A DNA stretch of 39,643 bases from Deltaproteobacteria bacterium (lineage in GTDB: Bacteria; Myxococcota_A; Polyangia; DRWM01; JAAZOP01), in assembly GCA_016930215.1 (NCBI GenBank), contig JAFGHH010000320.1, positions 1 through 39,643 of the forward strand, written 5' to 3'. Below the pieces are notes generated by a model. It was given only the letters and a program-made list of their open reading frames with translations. It made no database searches and had not been told where the DNA came from. Made by a program: the position numbers and the translations under genes. This document shows, piece after piece, positions 17,471 to 26,663 of this stretch (the first letter of the stretch is position 1; each line of letters begins with the position of its first letter).

Positions 17471-20400
17471 ATGGGAGCATCCCGGACGGAGCGCTCGCAC
17501 CGGTGGGTCGCGGTGTTCGCATGCACGATCGCGTTGACGACGATGGCGCGACCGACGGCGGCACGGGCGAACAACGTGTACTTCGATTTCACCATCCCCG
17601 CCGACCTCGGGCCGGTCGTGGACGCGTTGGTCTACGTGCTTCCAACCTACCAGCTCCTGCCGCCGTACCTTCCATCGGCGCACGAGGCGGCGGTATACCG
17701 CGCCATCGGGCTGGCATGCGGCCCCGACGGCGACCCGTCGGAGTGCGCGTTCTACAAGGCCGACTTCAACGACTGCACCGGCTCTTCGTTCGGCGGCTGC
17801 GCGTCGTACAAGTTGTGCACCGACGGCGTGGGTCTGCCGTTTGACGACTACTGCAACACCATCGGCTACGTCGGCCTCGGCGAAGGCGGTTTCAGCACCT
17901 GGGACTTCACGGGCCTGCTGGTTGGCGCCCGCTTCGTGGACATGCGGGAGCTGACCGGACCGGAGGCGGCCGCAATCAACGAGATGGCCGACGCCTTCGC
18001 GGACGGCCTGGCCGGCAAGCGACCCTGGGAGAGCACGATCGGCACCGCCGACCAGTTTCAGGCGCAGCACGGCTACGCCACGACCCGGTTCCTCGAGGAC
18101 AACCGCTTGTACGACGTGCCGTGGACGACGACCATCGTCGGCGACGTGACGGTCCGCAGCTACTCCGTGCCCGGCCTGGTCGAACGGAACCAGGCGATGC
18201 TCACCGCCTCCGCCAGCTTCCTCCTCGACCGGATGCTCCAGGCGTCGCCGGAGGTCGTGCCGCCGAACGACCTGCCGGTCAAGGACTTCTCCACGATTCG
18301 CGCGACGCTCGGCGAACACTGGCGCGCGGGGCTCCTGGTCGCCGGAACGGCCATGGTGGCCTGTCCGGCCCCCTCCGCCGCAGTCCTAGCGACCGCCGCG
18401 CTCAGTGAAGACAGGGCGGAAGCCTGCATCGCAGTGGGAGCCATCATCACAACGTTGCCGGCGGTCGGGCTGCCGTGCATCGGAATGAGCGGCTTCCTGG
18501 GTTCCGTCGCCTGCGGCTCCGAGCATGGCGAGCAGGTGATGGTCCGTCCCGACCTGCTGTACCTCGGGCAGGGGACGCACACGATTGCGGACTCGTTCGC
18601 GCACACCGTGCGCGACTTCCGCAACGTCGTCGCGCCCGGAACCCCGGAGGACGCCCTGTCCGTGGCCGCCTTCCGGTCCAACGGCACCACGCCCTGGTAC
18701 TACCGGCACAGCGACGCGATGGACCACAATGGCAGGTACCACTATCTTGGAGAGGTCTATGCCTTCGACGCCGACGAGGAGTCCGGCGACCCGCTGTTCA
18801 TCGAACGGCTCGGCAACGCCCAGGGCGAGGCCAACATCCGCTACACCGCCGCGGCGATCCGCGACTGGCTCGCGGTGTTCGAAGGGACCGTCGGCGGACC
18901 GCCGCCGACCTTCCAGGAGCGGCTCGAACGCTTCCGCCGCTTCGTCAAGCGGCATCTGGCCTACGCGATGCCGCAGGAGCTGGCGCCGGCGAACCTCCCG
19001 GACTACCGCCGCGCCGAGAAGTGCCGCGCGGACGCCGACTGCGTCGACGCCTTCGAGGACGGCAGCGGAAGCACCGCCGTCTGCGACCTCGTTTCCGGCA
19101 TCTGTCGGCACGTCTGCGCGGCCGACGAGGATTGCCAACCGGGGTTCCGCTGCACGAGCGGCGTCCCCTGGGACTACGCCGGAGTCGTCGCCTCGAACCG
19201 CTACTGCTCCGCCCTGTGGGATCCCTGGGAAAACGTCGCCGACGAGTACCTGATCGGCATCCAGCGCTCCGAACAGGGTGACTTCACCGGCAAGCGATGG
19301 CTGGCGACCTCGAGCGCCGCGAACGAGTGGTACATGATGGAGCGGACCAACACCGGGGAGCCCGAGGGCTTCTCCTACGAACGAATCGAGTGGCACCGTG
19401 CCGGCCTTCGAGCGGGCCTCACCGGGGGCGAGGAGCTGGTCGCCCTGGCGTTCGACGGCCTCGGCTACACCGGAGACGTCCACCCCTTGACGACGTCGGT
19501 TCCGGCGGGCGTGGAGTCCCCGGCCGGCGTGGTCGTCCCGGCCGGCACGCAGTCGATCTACGTCGAGCCGCGGAGGCGCGTCTGTCTTCGCAACCCGGAA
19601 GACCGGCAGCTCTGCCTCTACGGCGGGCTGCACGGCACGGCCGAGGGGCGGCTGATGCGCGCCTGGCGCGGTCGCGTGGCGTCCGTGTCGTGGCAGAACC
19701 TGGACATCGATGGCGACGGCGTCGGCGACAGGTCGGACAACTGCGTGTTCGCCTCCAACTCCGGACAGCAGGACCTCGACGGCGACGGCTACGGCGACGC
19801 CTGCGACCGCGACGTCGACGGCGACCTGGTGCTCGACGACAGCAACGGGTGGTTCGGCTTCGCCAACGGCCTGCGCGACCCGTGCGTTCCGGCCGCGGGC
19901 CGGTGGCCGACGGCCGAGCGCTGCGACGACAACTGCCTGCGCGTCTACAACCCGGCCAAGCGCGACCTCGGCTCCCTGCCCGCCGGGCTGGAGACGCCGT
20001 CGCCCGTGCGGGACCTCGTCCCCGACCAGTTCGACCTCGACGGCGACGGCGTCGGCGACTCGTGCGACCTCGACCCCGACGGGGACCAGGCCGGCCTCGA
20101 GTACGCCTGGCCCGACGACTACGTGCAGGCCGCCGGCGAGCAGCTCCCGGGCCGGCCGCCGCCGAGCAGCCGGACGCCGTTTACCGAATGCGCCGACTTC
20201 CTCTGGTTCCTCTCCGACGACAAGGACGACGACGGCGTCTGCGACCTGTACAACTTCATCCCGTACATCAACAACCTCGTCGACTGGATGCCGGACCAGA
20301 GCTATGGCGCGGCCCCGACCGCAGGCTTCGGCTACCTCAAGCCGTGGTCGGCGCGCGCGCACATCGATACCATGAACGGCCACTACCTCTCCGAGCGGTA

Positions 20401-23400
20401 CCGGTACGATGCGGGCTCGGACGTGCGCGTCAAGCCGCCGCCCGATTCGCTCGCGGAAGAGGACCCGGGCGAGGCCGGCTACACCTGGTACCAGTACGTC
20501 GACCGTCCGGCAGGCCCCGACTACGCGACGTTCGGCTACGAGGGGTGCATGCGCAACCTGGTCGACGTCTGGCACTACTACCAGGGCGATCGGAGCATGA
20601 CGTCCATCGCGGAATCCCCGACGCCCGGCCGCCACGACGTCGAGTTCCTCCAGGCGAAGTCCGACCTGATCGAGCAGCTCGAATCCAACGCCGTCGGCTC
20701 GCCGCCGCACTGGTCGCCGACCCCGTACTACGCCGACCGGCAGGAGTTCGCCCTGGCGAGCGATCGCGACGCCTGGAACACCATGCTCGGCGAGATCAAG
20801 TTCAAGAAGGAGCAGCTCTACCGCAACCTGGAGCCCGAGCTGTGCCGGGTCGACGACTGCATCCGGTTCATGCGGATGAACGGGCCGTTCGACGTCGGCC
20901 CGAACGACCTCGACCCGCTGAGCCGCCGCATCATGGTCGAGGACCAGTATCCCGACCTGGAGCTGGGCACCAACCGCTCGGGCTGGTGCTGGACCGAGAA
21001 CCTCCACAGTGTCGCCGGCGACCCGTCGGACGAGCCGCACAGCACGCAGATCTACTGCGACTTCTGCGAGCACTTCGAGGAACCGACCCCCGCCCAGTGC
21101 CGCGAGGACGACGACCCGGACGAGACGTCGTCCGGCTACAGGAAGTGGTACCGGAACGAGAACCAGCTCGACACCAACCACGACGGCATCGGCGACAAGT
21201 GCTCGGCGTGGGTGGAGCTCGTCGACCTGGAGCAGGACCACGTCACGCAACGCCTCTGGACCGGACACTGGACCAGCAGCGGGAGTTGGGGCACCGACGC
21301 GATGCGCGACGGGTTCGTGGATTGGACCGCGCCCGAAGACCCGCGGGACCCGGAGACCGGTCTGCCGGTCCGCAACGACCAGGACTGGTCGACCGCGCCG
21401 GAGGACGCCGTCGCCCCGGCCGGCCTGTGCGAGCGGTGCACGGAGGAGGGGCTCTCCTGCGAGGTGCGCAAGTACCGCATCTGGCCCAAGCAGGAGCTGG
21501 AGTTCCGCGTCAGCGGCTCCAGCGGCGACCCCGTCCCGAGCACCCTCGGCGCCTGCGCCTGCGACTTGCCGGACCGTGCATCGTGCTACGGCAGCGACGA
21601 TCGCTGCTGGCGCCCCCTCGACGACCTGTGGAAGACGGAGCCGGACGAGTACCTGCTGCAGGCGCAGCGCCGCGAGTTCAACACGACCACAGGTAGACCC
21701 CGCTATCCCGGTTTCCGGCTGTTCGGGAACCGGACGCCGGAGATGTACGGGCGGCTGGTCGTCACCGAGCCGTGCCAGCCGCGGACGCGGCTCGCGGCGG
21801 GCGGGCCGTTCGGGCCACGGTTCTTCGTCGAGTACGGCTGGGACCGGAACCCGGTGTCCGTGGCGGACGGCTGCCAGGAGATCGCGCTGCTGTTCGAGGA
21901 GGGCGAGTACCGCCGGCTCGAATGGGGCTACCACGCGCAGGTGGAGCCGGACCGGCGGGAGCTGGAGGCCGTGGGCGGCTTCTTCGACTGGACGCGGAAC
22001 CCGCGCGGCGAGCAGCTCTGGATGGGCGATGCCGCCGGCCTCTCCTACACCACCGCGATGCGGGTCGGCATCCTCGGCACCCCGGACCCGGCCGACCCCA
22101 CGCGCAAGTACTGGCAGCGGCAGTGGCACACTCGGACCTACGGTTCCTTCGCCGAAGGCGACCCGCCGGAAGGCTCGGTGGCCGACCGCGATCGGCCGGT
22201 GCCGGACACGATGTTCGGGTTGGCGGCCGACGGCGAGGTCGGGCTCGTGACCTACGTCCCCACCTGCGGCGGCCCGATCTGGCCCGAGATCGACATCGTC
22301 GACGGGCCGGTGCCCGAGTGGCCGGGCGACATCCGCTCGATCCCGGCGTTGGACCGCGAGGCGGTTGTCGCGGTGGCGGAGCGGATTTCGGCCGACGGCC
22401 GGGCGTCCGTCGTTCTGGACGTCGCCGAGGTGACGATCGGCACCGGCGAGGTGGACCGGCGGCAGGAGAAGTTCGAGCTGCCGGCGCCCGGCTTCCCAGT
22501 CCGCGACTTCGCGCGCGCGCGGCTGCTCCTGAGCGCGACGAAGGCGGGCGAACTGTTCGACTACGGCGGCCAGAAGCAGACGGCGGAGGTCACCCTCCTC
22601 GTGAGCGGTCGCGACGCAAACGGCATCGCCTCGACCGACGTCTGGATCTCGCGGGGCTGGGACGCCGTGCCGGCCTTCGAGAAGCTCGAAGCGCCGAGCG
22701 GCCCGCCGCCGAACGTCGACCAGGACGCTGCGTCATCGCCCTCCAACCTGCCGAGCTTCGTTCGTCCGCGGCTGTGGTTCGACGCTTCCCGGACGCGGCT
22801 GCTCGTGCTGGCGGGCCGGACCGCCGACGACACGCCGCTCGACCGCGTGTGGAGCTTCGACCTCGCGACCCGCCGCTGGTCGACATTGGTCGGTGTCGGC
22901 GGCCAGGCCGTACCGATTCCGCCGCCTGCGGCGCTCGGGGAGCTGGCCCGCGACCCGGGCGGCGGCCGCGCCTACCTGGTAGCGCCCGGCGAGAACGGCA
23001 TGCACGTCTACGGCATCCGGCCGGGCGACGCGGCGCCGGCGTTCGAGGAGATTCCCGCGGTCGGCGCCCGTCCGGCGCCTCGGAACGACGCCGCGGTCGC
23101 CTACAGTCCGAGCCTGGGCCAAGTGCTTCTCTTCGGCGGGTCGCTCCTCGGCCCCGGCACGACCCCGGGAGATGACGGGACCGCCGTTGCGGCCGGCGCG
23201 GCGACCCTCGGCGACCCGGGCGGTTTCTTGGGAGACCTCTGGGGCTTCGACCCTCGCAAGGGCGTCTGGACGTTGCTGCGACCCGACGCGGGCCCCGGCA
23301 TCGTCCGCGCCGGCGCGGCCCTGGTCGTCGGCAGCGGCGAGAAGGCGTACGTCCTGGGCGGACGCAACGCCTGGGGCGGCCTGCCGGTGGATCGATCGCT

Positions 23401-24865
23401 CCGCGTCGATCTGGGCGCTTCGAACGACCAAGGATGGACGCTGACCGAGCCGTCCGCCCCGCGATTGCTCACGGTCGACGGGGCGGCCCACCACGGAGCA
23501 TGGCGGCCCGGCGACGTCGAATCGTTCCTGCTCGTCGGCCAGGATCTCCGCCCGGACCAGCGCGCCCCGGTCCAGGTGGTGCTCGAGGCGGACGGTGGGC
23601 AGCTCGGCTTCGTCGTGCAGTCGCCGACCTCCCGCGCGTGGTATTCGGGCGAGGCGGGAGACGGACGCTCTCGGGCGACCGTCGCCCTGCTGCCCGGAGA
23701 GCAGTACCGGGTCGTGGTGTTCGGCCCGCCCGGAACGGTTCCCGCAACGGGGATTCCCTACTCCCTCGAGGCGACGTCGGTGCTGCCGCAAGGGCGTCGC
23801 TGGACCATCGCCGTGCCCGGGTTGACGCGTTTCGATGCCGCCGGGAACCGGGTCTACGTCGCCGACTGGAACAAGCTCGACATCCACGAGTGGCGCGGAG
23901 CGGCGCTGGTGCGGCGCGGGTCGCTGGCGATGGGGGCCGCGGTCGATGTGGAGGTCGTCGGCGGGGTCGCCTACGTGGCCGACTTCGAGCGTGGCCTGGT
24001 GTCGGTCGACGTGAGCGACCCGACGACGCCCCGGGTGCTCGACACCGAGTGGCTGCTGGGCGCGCCCGACTCGGTGGCGGTGCGCGAAGGTCGGGCCTAC
24101 CTCGGGACGGGGGTCTTCGGCGTGGCGGTGGTCGATGCCGCCGATCCGACCGACCTGGCCTGGACGGCGCAGATCGTCCCGCCCGGACTGTCGCCGCCGC
24201 AGCACGATCGGGCCGAGGCCGCCGGCGGTAGCGGGTGTCTGGCTCGGGTCGTCGACGTTTCCATCGGCGGCAATCACCTGCTGGTCGCGGACTCGAACCG
24301 GACCGTCTGGATCTACGGGTTGGACGCCGACCAGTCGTCGGTCCTGGCCGGCAGCTACGTGGCGTTGCGACAGGTCGAGGACACGGCGGTGCACGGTCGG
24401 ACGCTCTTCCTCAGCGACGGTCGTGCCGCCCTGGAAGCCGTCGACATCCGCCATCCCGCAACGCCCACCCGGATCTCCGTCGTCCACGGCCCGGAGTGGG
24501 AGGTCTCTGCGCGCTACGGCTACGACCTCCAGGCCCGCCGCAGCGTCGCCAGCGGCATCGTCGTGCAGGGGATGAAGGAGCTTCCCGGGGAGCGTCACCG
24601 GCGCCGCTGGGGTGGCCCGCACGGCACCTGCCGTGACGGGTGGAGCGACGAGGACGAAGACAGGCGTGACGGATGCGAGGGGTGGGCCGGGTGCGACGAT
24701 CACGGCGGCGGCGACGGCGCGCCGCCCGACGACGATCCTCCCGGTCACGGTGGTCACGGGGGCCACGGTGGCGGCGGCGGCGACGGCGCGCCGTCCGATG
24801 ACGATCCTCCGGATCACGACGGTCATGGCGGCGGCTCGGGTGAGGGACGTGGAGGACGACGGTGA
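17471..24865 (+). CDS. giant secreted mosaic protein (PLC-like motif, TSP3, kelch, LVIVD)
   Basis: A 2464-residue protein. I start at ATG 17471, preceded by AAGGAGG. A Sec signal ends near ARPTAARA-NN. About residues 368-385 hold GTHTIADSFAH, an H-x3-D-x3-H pattern like the metal site of zinc-dependent phospholipase C-type domains; this call is tentative. A Cys-rich segment follows (about 517-562). TSP3-type calcium loops lie near 745-790, 855-875 and 1235 (DLDGDGYGDACD, DTNHDGIGDKC). Kelch-like repeats (LLFGGS, VLGGRN) lie at about 1765-1990, a PPC-like beta module at 2010-2110, LVIVD-type propeller repeats (VAYVADFERGLVSVDV) at 2115-2345 and a His/Gly/Asp tail from 2407. It is probably cell-surface or secreted, calcium-stabilised and adhesive or enzymatic. 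The next gene starts inside its stop codon. The 231 bp before it show no convincing promoter, only a CACCT/AGGTG inverted repeat at 17364-17378. Confidence 0.85.
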   Translation: MGASRTERSHRWVAVFACTIALTTMARPTAARANNVYFDFTIPADLGPVVDALVYVLPTYQLLPPYLPSAHEAAVYRAIGLACGPDGDPSECAFYKADFNDCTGSSFGGCASYKLCTDGVGLPFDDYCNTIGYVGLGEGGFSTWDFTGLLVGARFVDMRELTGPEAAAINEMADAFADGLAGKRPWESTIGTADQFQAQHGYATTRFLEDNRLYDVPWTTTIVGDVTVRSYSVPGLVERNQAMLTASASFLLDRMLQASPEVVPPNDLPVKDFSTIRATLGEHWRAGLLVAGTAMVACPAPSAAVLATAALSEDRAEACIAVGAIITTLPAVGLPCIGMSGFLGSVACGSEHGEQVMVRPDLLYLGQGTHTIADSFAHTVRDFRNVVAPGTPEDALSVAAFRSNGTTPWYYRHSDAMDHNGRYHYLGEVYAFDADEESGDPLFIERLGNAQGEANIRYTAAAIRDWLAVFEGTVGGPPPTFQERLERFRRFVKRHLAYAMPQELAPANLPDYRRAEKCRADADCVDAFEDGSGSTAVCDLVSGICRHVCAADEDCQPGFRCTSGVPWDYAGVVASNRYCSALWDPWENVADEYLIGIQRSEQGDFTGKRWLATSSAANEWYMMERTNTGEPEGFSYERIEWHRAGLRAGLTGGEELVALAFDGLGYTGDVHPLTTSVPAGVESPAGVVVPAGTQSIYVEPRRRVCLRNPEDRQLCLYGGLHGTAEGRLMRAWRGRVASVSWQNLDIDGDGVGDRSDNCVFASNSGQQDLDGDGYGDACDRDVDGDLVLDDSNGWFGFANGLRDPCVPAAGRWPTAERCDDNCLRVYNPAKRDLGSLPAGLETPSPVRDLVPDQFDLDGDGVGDSCDLDPDGDQAGLEYAWPDDYVQAAGEQLPGRPPPSSRTPFTECADFLWFLSDDKDDDGVCDLYNFIPYINNLVDWMPDQSYGAAPTAGFGYLKPWSARAHIDTMNGHYLSERYRYDAGSDVRVKPPPDSLAEEDPGEAGYTWYQYVDRPAGPDYATFGYEGCMRNLVDVWHYYQGDRSMTSIAESPTPGRHDVEFLQAKSDLIEQLESNAVGSPPHWSPTPYYADRQEFALASDRDAWNTMLGEIKFKKEQLYRNLEPELCRVDDCIRFMRMNGPFDVGPNDLDPLSRRIMVEDQYPDLELGTNRSGWCWTENLHSVAGDPSDEPHSTQIYCDFCEHFEEPTPAQCREDDDPDETSSGYRKWYRNENQLDTNHDGIGDKCSAWVELVDLEQDHVTQRLWTGHWTSSGSWGTDAMRDGFVDWTAPEDPRDPETGLPVRNDQDWSTAPEDAVAPAGLCERCTEEGLSCEVRKYRIWPKQELEFRVSGSSGDPVPSTLGACACDLPDRASCYGSDDRCWRPLDDLWKTEPDEYLLQAQRREFNTTTGRPRYPGFRLFGNRTPEMYGRLVVTEPCQPRTRLAAGGPFGPRFFVEYGWDRNPVSVADGCQEIALLFEEGEYRRLEWGYHAQVEPDRRELEAVGGFFDWTRNPRGEQLWMGDAAGLSYTTAMRVGILGTPDPADPTRKYWQRQWHTRTYGSFAEGDPPEGSVADRDRPVPDTMFGLAADGEVGLVTYVPTCGGPIWPEIDIVDGPVPEWPGDIRSIPALDREAVVAVAERISADGRASVVLDVAEVTIGTGEVDRRQEKFELPAPGFPVRDFARARLLLSATKAGELFDYGGQKQTAEVTLLVSGRDANGIASTDVWISRGWDAVPAFEKLEAPSGPPPNVDQDAASSPSNLPSFVRPRLWFDASRTRLLVLAGRTADDTPLDRVWSFDLATRRWSTLVGVGGQAVPIPPPAALGELARDPGGGRAYLVAPGENGMHVYGIRPGDAAPAFEEIPAVGARPAPRNDAAVAYSPSLGQVLLFGGSLLGPGTTPGDDGTAVAAGAATLGDPGGFLGDLWGFDPRKGVWTLLRPDAGPGIVRAGAALVVGSGEKAYVLGGRNAWGGLPVDRSLRVDLGASNDQGWTLTEPSAPRLLTVDGAAHHGAWRPGDVESFLLVGQDLRPDQRAPVQVVLEADGGQLGFVVQSPTSRAWYSGEAGDGRSRATVALLPGEQYRVVVFGPPGTVPATGIPYSLEATSVLPQGRRWTIAVPGLTRFDAAGNRVYVADWNKLDIHEWRGAALVRRGSLAMGAAVDVEVVGGVAYVADFERGLVSVDVSDPTTPRVLDTEWLLGAPDSVAVREGRAYLGTGVFGVAVVDAADPTDLAWTAQIVPPGLSPPQHDRAEAAGGSGCLARVVDVSIGGNHLLVADSNRTVWIYGLDADQSSVLAGSYVALRQVEDTAVHGRTLFLSDGRAALEAVDIRHPATPTRISVVHGPEWEVSARYGYDLQARRSVASGIVVQGMKELPGERHRRRWGGPHGTCRDGWSDEDEDRRDGCEGWAGCDDHGGGDGAPPDDDPPGHGGHGGHGGGGGDGAPSDDDPPDHDGHGGGSGEGRGGRR
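24699..24831 (+). repeat. in-frame duplication encoding the His/Asp/Gly tail
   Basis: Two copies of about 60-70 bp (24699-24759 and 24760-24831) encode GDGAPPDDDPPGHGGHGG and GDGAPSDDDPPDHDGHGG. The shared core is gcgacggcgcgccg followed by gacgatcctcc. The repeat gives the giant protein a tail suited to binding metal ions. Confidence 0.8.
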
Positions 24866-25242
24866 CCGGGCAACGGCCGCGGTGGACGCGGAACCGAATC
24901 GCCGGCCTCGTGGCCGGCGCTGCCGTGGTGCTGGTCGGCGGGTACCTCGTTCTGCGGTGGTCAGGCGGTCGATCGGCGGACGCGACCGACGAGAGGCTCG
25001 GACCGCCGACCACCGCCCCGGCGGCCCATGACGACGACTCGTCCGGCATGAGTCGGCTCCGCGAGGGTGCCCGGCAGGTCTCGGAGCCGGCCGCGGCGCT
25101 GGACACGGCACGCGAAGCGCTCACGCGCGTCGAGGCGGAACTGGCATCGGCGACGAGCGCAGCCGACCAGGAGCGCCTGGCGCGGAAGAAGCAACTGATC
25201 GTCGAGGCCATCGCCCGGCTGGAGGAGAACACCGAGCGATGA
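24862..25242 (+). CDS. small single-pass membrane protein with coiled coil
   Basis: A 126-residue protein beginning at GTG 24862, which overlaps the stop of the giant gene (GTGA). It has a short basic N-terminus (RPRWTRNR), one membrane segment (IAGLVAGAAVVLVGGYLVL), an acidic linker and a C-terminal helix with heptad-like pattern (residues about 75-126). With its C-terminal part outside the cytoplasm it could anchor or chaperone the giant secreted protein; that is inference from coupling. I recognise no family. Confidence 0.82.
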   Translation: MTGQRPRWTRNRIAGLVAGAAVVLVGGYLVLRWSGGRSADATDERLGPPTTAPAAHDDDSSGMSRLREGARQVSEPAAALDTAREALTRVEAELASATSAADQERLARKKQLIVEAIARLEENTER

Positions 25243-25303
25243 CGCAGTTGGATCAGCCGGAAGGCCCGCGCGAATCCACGCTCGCGTTGCGTGCGGTCGG
25301 ACA

Positions 25304-25323
25304 CCATGCTAGGCCCAGCATGG
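25304..25323. promoter_or_regulatory. perfect 7-bp inverted repeat before the propeller lipoprotein
   Basis: CCATGCT (25304-25310) and AGCATGG (25317-25323) flank AGGCCC. It could be an operator or an RNA hairpin between the second and third genes of the giant-protein cluster. Confidence 0.5.
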
Positions 25324-25355
25324 AGGAGACATACCCGTTCGGTTGGAGTAGTCCC

Positions 25356-26663
25356 ATGAGCTGTCCTCCAACCTTGCTTCATGTTGCGGCACTGGCGGCA
25401 ATGCTTGTGGCGGGCACAGCCTGCCCTTCCAACAACAACCACGAGGACGGGGCGATGGAAGCCGAGGATGGCGCCGACCAGGTGGACACGCCTTCCGACG
25501 CCGACGCCGGCGTACACGACGACGGTCCGCCCGACTTTGGGCCCGACGTGGACATCGATGCCGATGTGGACACCGACGTGCGCCCCGATGCAGACGCTGA
25601 CGTGGGCGAAGCAGAAGGCGACGACGGGTGGGACGCGGACTCGATCCTGCCGACCGGCTGCCAGTTCGTGCTTCCCGCGCGCGGCCTCGGCAACGGCTGG
25701 ACCGGCCGCAATGGCATCGATGACGGCAAGGTCGTCTGGCGTACAGTTGACTCCAGCTCCCTGCCATCGGACTCGGTCTTGATGGTCCGGGACCTCGCCA
25801 CCGGAGTCGACCGCGAGGTGCTTCGCCGAACTTACCCCGACATGCTTGAAAAACCGGCCGTCCATGGGAACGTAGTGGTCTTCTTCTCTGAGACAGCGGA
25901 GTACGTGGACGAATCGAAGGAGATCTTCCGGCTATCCCTGGCCGGCGGATCCGCCGTGCGGATCACCGACAACTCTGTCCCGGACTTCTCGCCGATGGCG
26001 GGCGAGGACTACGTGGTGTACGAATCGGCGCCTGATCCGCCTCCGCCTGGCATGGCGGGCGAGTACCGGTACGTTGACCTGAGTGACGGCTCGGACCACT
26101 CACTGGCTGGAACCGCGGGTCGCACGGAGATCACCTTCGACGGCCACCGTTGGGTGGCAATCATGAACGACAACTACCTGTACAAGTTCGACCTGACGGA
26201 CCCTGCCGCAGGAGCCCAGCAACTCGCACCGTACGCGATGGGCATCACGGGGATGGCGTTCGATCGGGACACCGGACTACTGATCACCGGGGTGCACCGG
26301 GTCGGCGAGAGCGACGACTACCGTCTCCAGACCTGGAACATGACGACAGGCGAGACTGCCGTCCTCCTGGACCAGCCTTGGAGCCAGGTGATGGGCGACG
26401 TGGACGGGCACGTGGTCGTCTACGACGACTCGCAGGCCGCCGGTGAGCCGTACTGGTCGCACCAGTACAGCGAGTTGCGGATCCTGGACCGGGACACCGG
26501 CGCGATCCGCGTCGTCATGCCGTTGGACACCTACTACGGCGTCGGGATCTGGGAGCGCTGGATCGCCTTCAACAACTACGGCATGTACGGCGACTCGCTG
26601 ATCATCTGCGACCTCGTCGCCGCCGGGTACATGGACGCGGACCTGCACGTGGTGCCGGAGTAG
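25356..26663 (+). CDS. Asp-rich-stalk beta-propeller lipoprotein
   Basis: A 435-residue protein. I start at ATG 25356, with GGAG 9 nt upstream, because a signal peptide ending MLVAGTAC begins there. The track start at 25239 (ATGA overlap with the previous gene) would place 39 extra residues before the leader. After the cysteine comes a roughly 65-residue Asp/Ala/Val-rich stalk (DVDIDADVDTDVRPDADADV), then repeated blades in the style of TolB/WD40-like propellers (GKVVWRTVD, GNVVVFFSE, EDYVVYESA, GRTEITFDGHRWVAIMND). It is probably held off the outer membrane by the acidic stalk. It is likely functionally linked to the giant protein upstream, which also carries propeller repeats. Confidence 0.82.
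   Translation: MSCPPTLLHVAALAAMLVAGTACPSNNNHEDGAMEAEDGADQVDTPSDADAGVHDDGPPDFGPDVDIDADVDTDVRPDADADVGEAEGDDGWDADSILPTGCQFVLPARGLGNGWTGRNGIDDGKVVWRTVDSSSLPSDSVLMVRDLATGVDREVLRRTYPDMLEKPAVHGNVVVFFSETAEYVDESKEIFRLSLAGGSAVRITDNSVPDFSPMAGEDYVVYESAPDPPPPGMAGEYRYVDLSDGSDHSLAGTAGRTEITFDGHRWVAIMNDNYLYKFDLTDPAAGAQQLAPYAMGITGMAFDRDTGLLITGVHRVGESDDYRLQTWNMTTGETAVLLDQPWSQVMGDVDGHVVVYDDSQAAGEPYWSHQYSELRILDRDTGAIRVVMPLDTYYGVGIWERWIAFNNYGMYGDSLIICDLVAAGYMDADLHVVPE

Follow-up and report, generated by a model that had tools for sequence, protein, structure and literature searches.

The locus described here raises the question of whether a giant exported protein and the two genes that follow it form a functional system, and of which kind. 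The window, which is the whole 39,643-nucleotide stretch of DNA analysed, is one entire contig (C447) of a 6.4-Mb genome assembled in 611 contigs. A preliminary description had proposed a three-gene cluster at 17471–26663 that includes an exported mosaic protein of 2464 residues; the ORF (GC3 0.90), its N-terminus and Pfam matches confirmed it (Table 1).

Table 1. Features of the three-gene cluster in the window.
Feature	Position	Strand	Basis
Giant mosaic protein, exported, 2464 aa	17471..24865	+	ORF (start ATG 17471, stop at 24865), Pfam, relatives
Signal-peptide-like N-terminus of the giant	17471..17572	+	sequence; inference
N-terminal head, HxxxDxxxH type, putative hydrolase	17576..19030	+	conserved in G001, G003, G063
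HxxxDxxxH motif, giant residues 370-378	18578..18604	+	invariant in four homologues
Cys-rich linker of the giant	19028..19675	+	alignment with G001, G003, G063
Thrombospondin type 3 repeats of the giant	19673..20125	+	Pfam PF02412 above cut-off
Central Cys-containing region, no known domain	20123..22390	+	conserved also in trypsin-headed relative
Kelch propeller region of the giant	22748..23500	+	Pfam kelch families
PPC-like segment of the giant	23498..23800	+	conserved block; not recognised by Pfam
LVIVD repeat region of the giant	23798..24625	+	Pfam PF08309 above cut-off
His/Asp/Gly-rich tail of the giant	24623..24862	+	sequence
CC, 126 aa, one N-terminal membrane helix and helical hairpin	24862..25242	+	homologues adjoin giants in f1, f9
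PROP, lipoprotein-like, Asp-rich stalk, predicted propeller	25356..26663	+	homologues beside giants in four families

The signal-peptide-like N-terminus of the giant ends with the residues AARA. Most modules attributed to the protein earlier were recovered: its LVIVD (47 bits, cut-off 20.2), kelch (Kelch_4, 36.7, cut-off 21.6) and thrombospondin type 3 repeats (TSP_3, 32.2, cut-off 25) score above the Pfam cut-offs and the Cys-rich linker is present, but the PPC-like segment (residues ~2010–2110) found no support in Pfam and stands as a conserved block among relatives. Solved thrombospondins also match the thrombospondin type 3 (TSP3) part; the matches returned by the TSP3 search were mostly generic. 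The His/Asp/Gly tail is real, similar tails being found in the giants of same-genus relatives; the G011 copies carry a (DTD)n-type tail. No anchor signal was seen in the tail of the giant, which is hydrophilic and lacks a Cys motif, a membrane helix and an Arg cluster. We propose to regard the TSP3 loops, the Cys-rich central region and the kelch/LVIVD repeats as a scaffold for the N-terminal domain (the head). The genome of the window also encodes a 1968-residue ORF with TSP3 repeats and no scaffold match (G000:C422; L087:1047-6950).

The gene of the one-helix protein, named CC, begins as claimed within the stop codon of the giant gene (overlap GTGA, start codon GTG 24862), with GGAGG upstream. 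A hydropathy peak of 1.7–3.0 lies close to the N-terminus of the CC proteins (6/6) and, judging from the positive N-terminus, their C-terminal region is expected in the periplasm. The sequence of CC is unrelated to every family searched; weak matches in G018 and G276 were dropped as they lie in other kinds of ORF. Two further near-identical CC copies, each cut by a contig end, are found in G011 (C103, L080:3-317; C138, L081:8766-9080) and perhaps belong to further gene sets. For the third gene, PROP, an ATG at 25239 does overlap the preceding stop codon as first noted, but the start is probably ATG 25356 because of the GGAG 7–8 nt upstream, the immediate signal peptide and the agreement with the starts of homologues. 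The description of PROP as an Asp-stalked propeller lipoprotein holds for the Asp-rich stalk; the propeller is predicted from repeat-like sequence, but PROP has no Pfam match and the best hit of a PDB profile search has E=0.15. Only some PROP proteins have a canonical lipobox: LAAC (G001) and LAGC (G011) fit the consensus, GTAC in the window is imperfect, and G003 shows no clear one. Weak PROP matches beyond the class were dropped, as they too sit in ORFs of other kinds.

In 318 genomes of one class, the kelch-LVIVD scaffold lies next to a member of the PROP family at 15 places in four families (places at which both are visible), the weakest being G056:C343 and G095:C255 where the LVIVD frames are short. 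CC is present at seven of the 15, only in families f1 and f9. Three gene orders occur. Giant-CC-PROP is kept in two same-genus genomes, recorded from groundwater, whose proteins are 46 and 43% (giant), 38 and 38% (CC), and 58 and 49% (PROP) identical to those of the window. CC-PROP-giant is found in G011, which belongs to another family, at C14 and, with PROP doubled (CC-PROP-PROP-giant), at C52, where identity to the window is 34% for CC and 37% for PROP; G027 has giant-PROP-CC. PROP also lies beside a 2442-residue giant with kelch and LVIVD matches at G011:C108, and a kelch-LVIVD profile search of all 318 genomes brought up additional scaffold-PROP pairs in G056 (f21; C171, C243, C163, C343) and G095 (f16; C138, C255). 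The giant of G063 breaks at the end of contig C159, and on contig C471 an end that contains LVIVD precedes PROP and a CC-like protein with one helix; the two contigs are likely neighbours. In G026:C53 (f16), also brought up by this profile, the giant is cut by the contig end ahead of any visible PROP, and this place is outside the count of 15.

Outside the window the partners adjoin giant homologues in further genomes and families and under different gene orders, so the reading of the cluster as a system passed the neighbourhood check; since the trio recurs in relatives, its association exceeds chance. CC was not found next to the giants of G056, G095 and G011:C39 nor anywhere in f16 and f21, and it is therefore not essential everywhere. 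The preliminary description suggested display through a dedicated membrane helper; as a candidate anchor, PROP, which all complete places have, is preferable to CC, which two of the four families did not yield. It could be argued that the giant is freely released and that PROP is an unrelated neighbour carried along by operon inheritance, a reading which fits the tail devoid of anchor signal and the presence of PROP without a visible giant at G027:C30 (a contig end is near there, as at G102:C100, the other such place; L084:7064-11113, L083:611-3205). However, adjacency survives altered gene order and extends over four families, and we judge this explanation improbable.

Several observations were made beside this count. 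PROP follows a papain-like protease gene and an Asp-rich Cys-containing lipoprotein-like gene at G027:C30, and a Fic-domain gene at G102:C100. Upstream of the G011:C52 set (L035:9733-13523) are a papain-like protein with QGQCGSC (a protease motif start) and a second, long peptidase-like ORF; the two overlap at their ends. The giants of G011 on C52 and C39 (L035:1-6822, L047:6395-12730) are both cut by a contig end within the identical tail sequence DTDTGSLPIACDPSDTSM, which suggests that a C-terminal extension is repeated. At G011:C108, a match to the Reelin subrepeat, below threshold, falls in the C-terminal extension region. LVIVD-type matches were also seen in far larger ORFs of ~11,300, 11,300, 12,300 and 6,500 residues (G070:C466, G070:C19, G209:C95 and G050:C241, respectively). 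The N-terminal half of the giant gave no match among the contigs of named genomes, and the profile of the central region matched three records.

The N-terminal domain of the giant is exchanged between loci while the scaffold is retained. The HxxxDxxxH-type head is found in the window, G001, G003 and G063. Trypsin heads above the Pfam cut-off (20.6 bits) occur in two families, with 24.9 bits at G011:C52, 32.1 at G011:C39 and 36.4 at G026:C53, and the head of G011:C108 is trypsin-like with a score just below cut-off. G056:C171 has a papain head (25.3 bits, cut-off 20.7), truncated at its N-terminal side by the contig. The heads of G011:C14 and G027:C2, 34% identical, are alpha/beta-hydrolase-like with HSxGG motifs (DUF676 E=0.015, below cut-off), and G056:C243 and C163 carry a further, unassigned type of head. 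Site patterns place the head of the window nearest to that of G063 and its central region nearest to the trypsin-headed G011:C52, both in Central1 (27 versus 54 sites, p=0.004) and in Central2 (28 versus 49 sites, p=0.02). Since G011 has an unrelated head, the head part of this comparison is partly trivial, which does not apply to the reversal seen in the central region.

These heads bear on the enzyme half of the enzyme-adhesin proposed in the preliminary description, which gains from the trypsin and papain heads of relatives but draws no support from the N-terminus of the window itself. The giant might instead be mainly an adhesin or matrix protein, its head a binding module or degenerate enzyme and PROP a co-adhesin. 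Repeats of the TSP3, kelch and LVIVD types are characteristic of proteins with surface and adhesive roles, the TSP3 part has a match, far below cut-off, to the cohesion protein MtsC of NCBIfam, and a pair of G056 heads (C243, C163) has no enzyme family match. The trypsin heads of G011 nevertheless retain their His, Asp and Ser motifs (AAHC, DIA, GDSGGP), which selection would not preserve in a pure adhesin, and we regard this alternative as rather unlikely.

The motif in the head of the window, H370-x3-D374-x3-H378, invariant in the four homologues of this head, had been compared to that of metal-dependent phospholipases C. The HxxxDxxxH pattern stands, with the same spacing as in the PF00882 proteins that are common in the class and present elsewhere in the genome of the window, but the comparisons neither support nor refute a relationship to that family. 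The PF00882 profile matched none of the four HxxxDxxxH heads, the head of the window has no Pfam match, a head profile gave only a chance match in the PDB, and hhalign of the head against PF00882 (E=0.36) was no better than shuffles. The head is accordingly not filed as a Zn-dependent phospholipase C, and hydrolase activity in the window is putative. AlphaFold2 run with shallow alignments gave pLDDT values of 29 for the head and 34 for the central region, low because the alignment depth is too small.

PROP tracks the scaffold rather than the enzyme head. Across nine loci, the pairwise distances of PROP correlate strongly with those of the kelch-LVIVD scaffold (r=0.94, permutation p=1e-4), also when the two same-genus relatives are left out (r=0.90, p=4e-4). 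The G011 paralogues agree, C14 being nearer to G027:C2 than to C52 in scaffold and PROP alike. The correlation speaks for co-inheritance and not for binding, because shared descent of neighbours can suffice to produce it. It also bears on the possibility that the giant is a secreted, toxin-like hydrolase from which PROP or CC, as immunity protein or inhibitor, protects the producer in the manner of polymorphic toxins. A varying enzyme-like domain beside conserved small neighbours has some resemblance to such an organization. An immunity protein would, however, be expected to vary with the enzyme, whereas PROP remains one family across trypsin, papain and HxxxDxxxH heads, and CC occurs with three kinds of head; that PROP follows the scaffold is evidence against its being the immunity protein of the head. 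We hold this explanation to be very improbable.

The gene module is well supported, and from it we infer a mechanism in which the giant would be a carrier presenting an exchangeable N-terminal hydrolase head on the common scaffold. The signal-peptide-like N-termini suggest Sec export, which type II secretion may follow; the secretin GspD of the type II secretion system (T2SS) scores above cut-off in 5/5 genomes tested. CC would be anchored in the inner membrane by its single helix with a helical hairpin in the periplasm, possibly as a chaperone dedicated to folding or escort; because it is found with heads of different kinds, the scaffold should be what it acts on. PROP may be a docking partner at the outer membrane that grips the giant via the scaffold, a model suggested by its constancy, the lipobox of several members, the Asp-rich stalk and a giant with no visible anchor signal. 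We give about even chances to such a modular extracellular-hydrolase system with swappable heads, a common carrier, escort by CC and docking by PROP. The broader reading of scaffold, PROP and CC as an export-and-display apparatus dedicated to interchangeable extracellular enzymes of the class is a tentative one, possible though doubtful. If the proposal is right, bacteria of this group mount different hydrolases on a single standard large carrier that a common lipoprotein keeps at the cell, which would provide a testable account of surface arming and a natural modular display arrangement.

Polymorphic toxin systems have a large exported protein in which one end is swapped and the rest is constant. 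The giant likewise has one end exchanged and the remainder kept, but here it is the N-terminus that is swapped, and the neighbours track the scaffold instead of the swapped domain. No immunity gene varying along with a toxin domain was found, PROP being one family across heads, and by membership tests the gene set is not classed with the polymorphic toxins, the MYXO-CTERM proteins or PF00882. It shares with LVIVD-repeat surface proteins (PMC2447325) the repeats and the predicted surface location, but here LVIVD is a single block of a multi-module carrier with two partner genes. MYXO-CTERM signals are abundant in the genome of the window, which suggests a Myxococcota-like host. Like the MYXO-CTERM proteins, whose display is T2SS-dependent (PMC11980579), the giant is large, exported and of surface type and occurs in the same lineages; it differs in its hydrophilic tail without the Cys motif, membrane helix and Arg cluster. 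The three-part layout had been presented as undescribed, and the open-access literature indeed gave no description of this domain combination or gene set; the domains are individually known and their arrangement, exchangeable hydrolase-type heads with constant partners, appears to be new. Among T2SS chaperones, one-helix proteins encoded next to an exported protein form a class already described (LipA/LipB, CpaA/CpaB; PMC4713064). CC resembles these membrane chaperones in adjoining the exported protein (seven places, f1 and f9), in its single N-terminal membrane helix and predicted periplasmic domain, and in the T2SS secretin of the genomes (PMC4713064). In contrast to LipA/LipB and CpaA/CpaB (PMC4713064), it is much smaller, is found with several kinds of head and is part of a set with PROP as constant third gene. 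If the proposed role is correct, the CC proteins are new candidates for the T2SS membrane-chaperone class.
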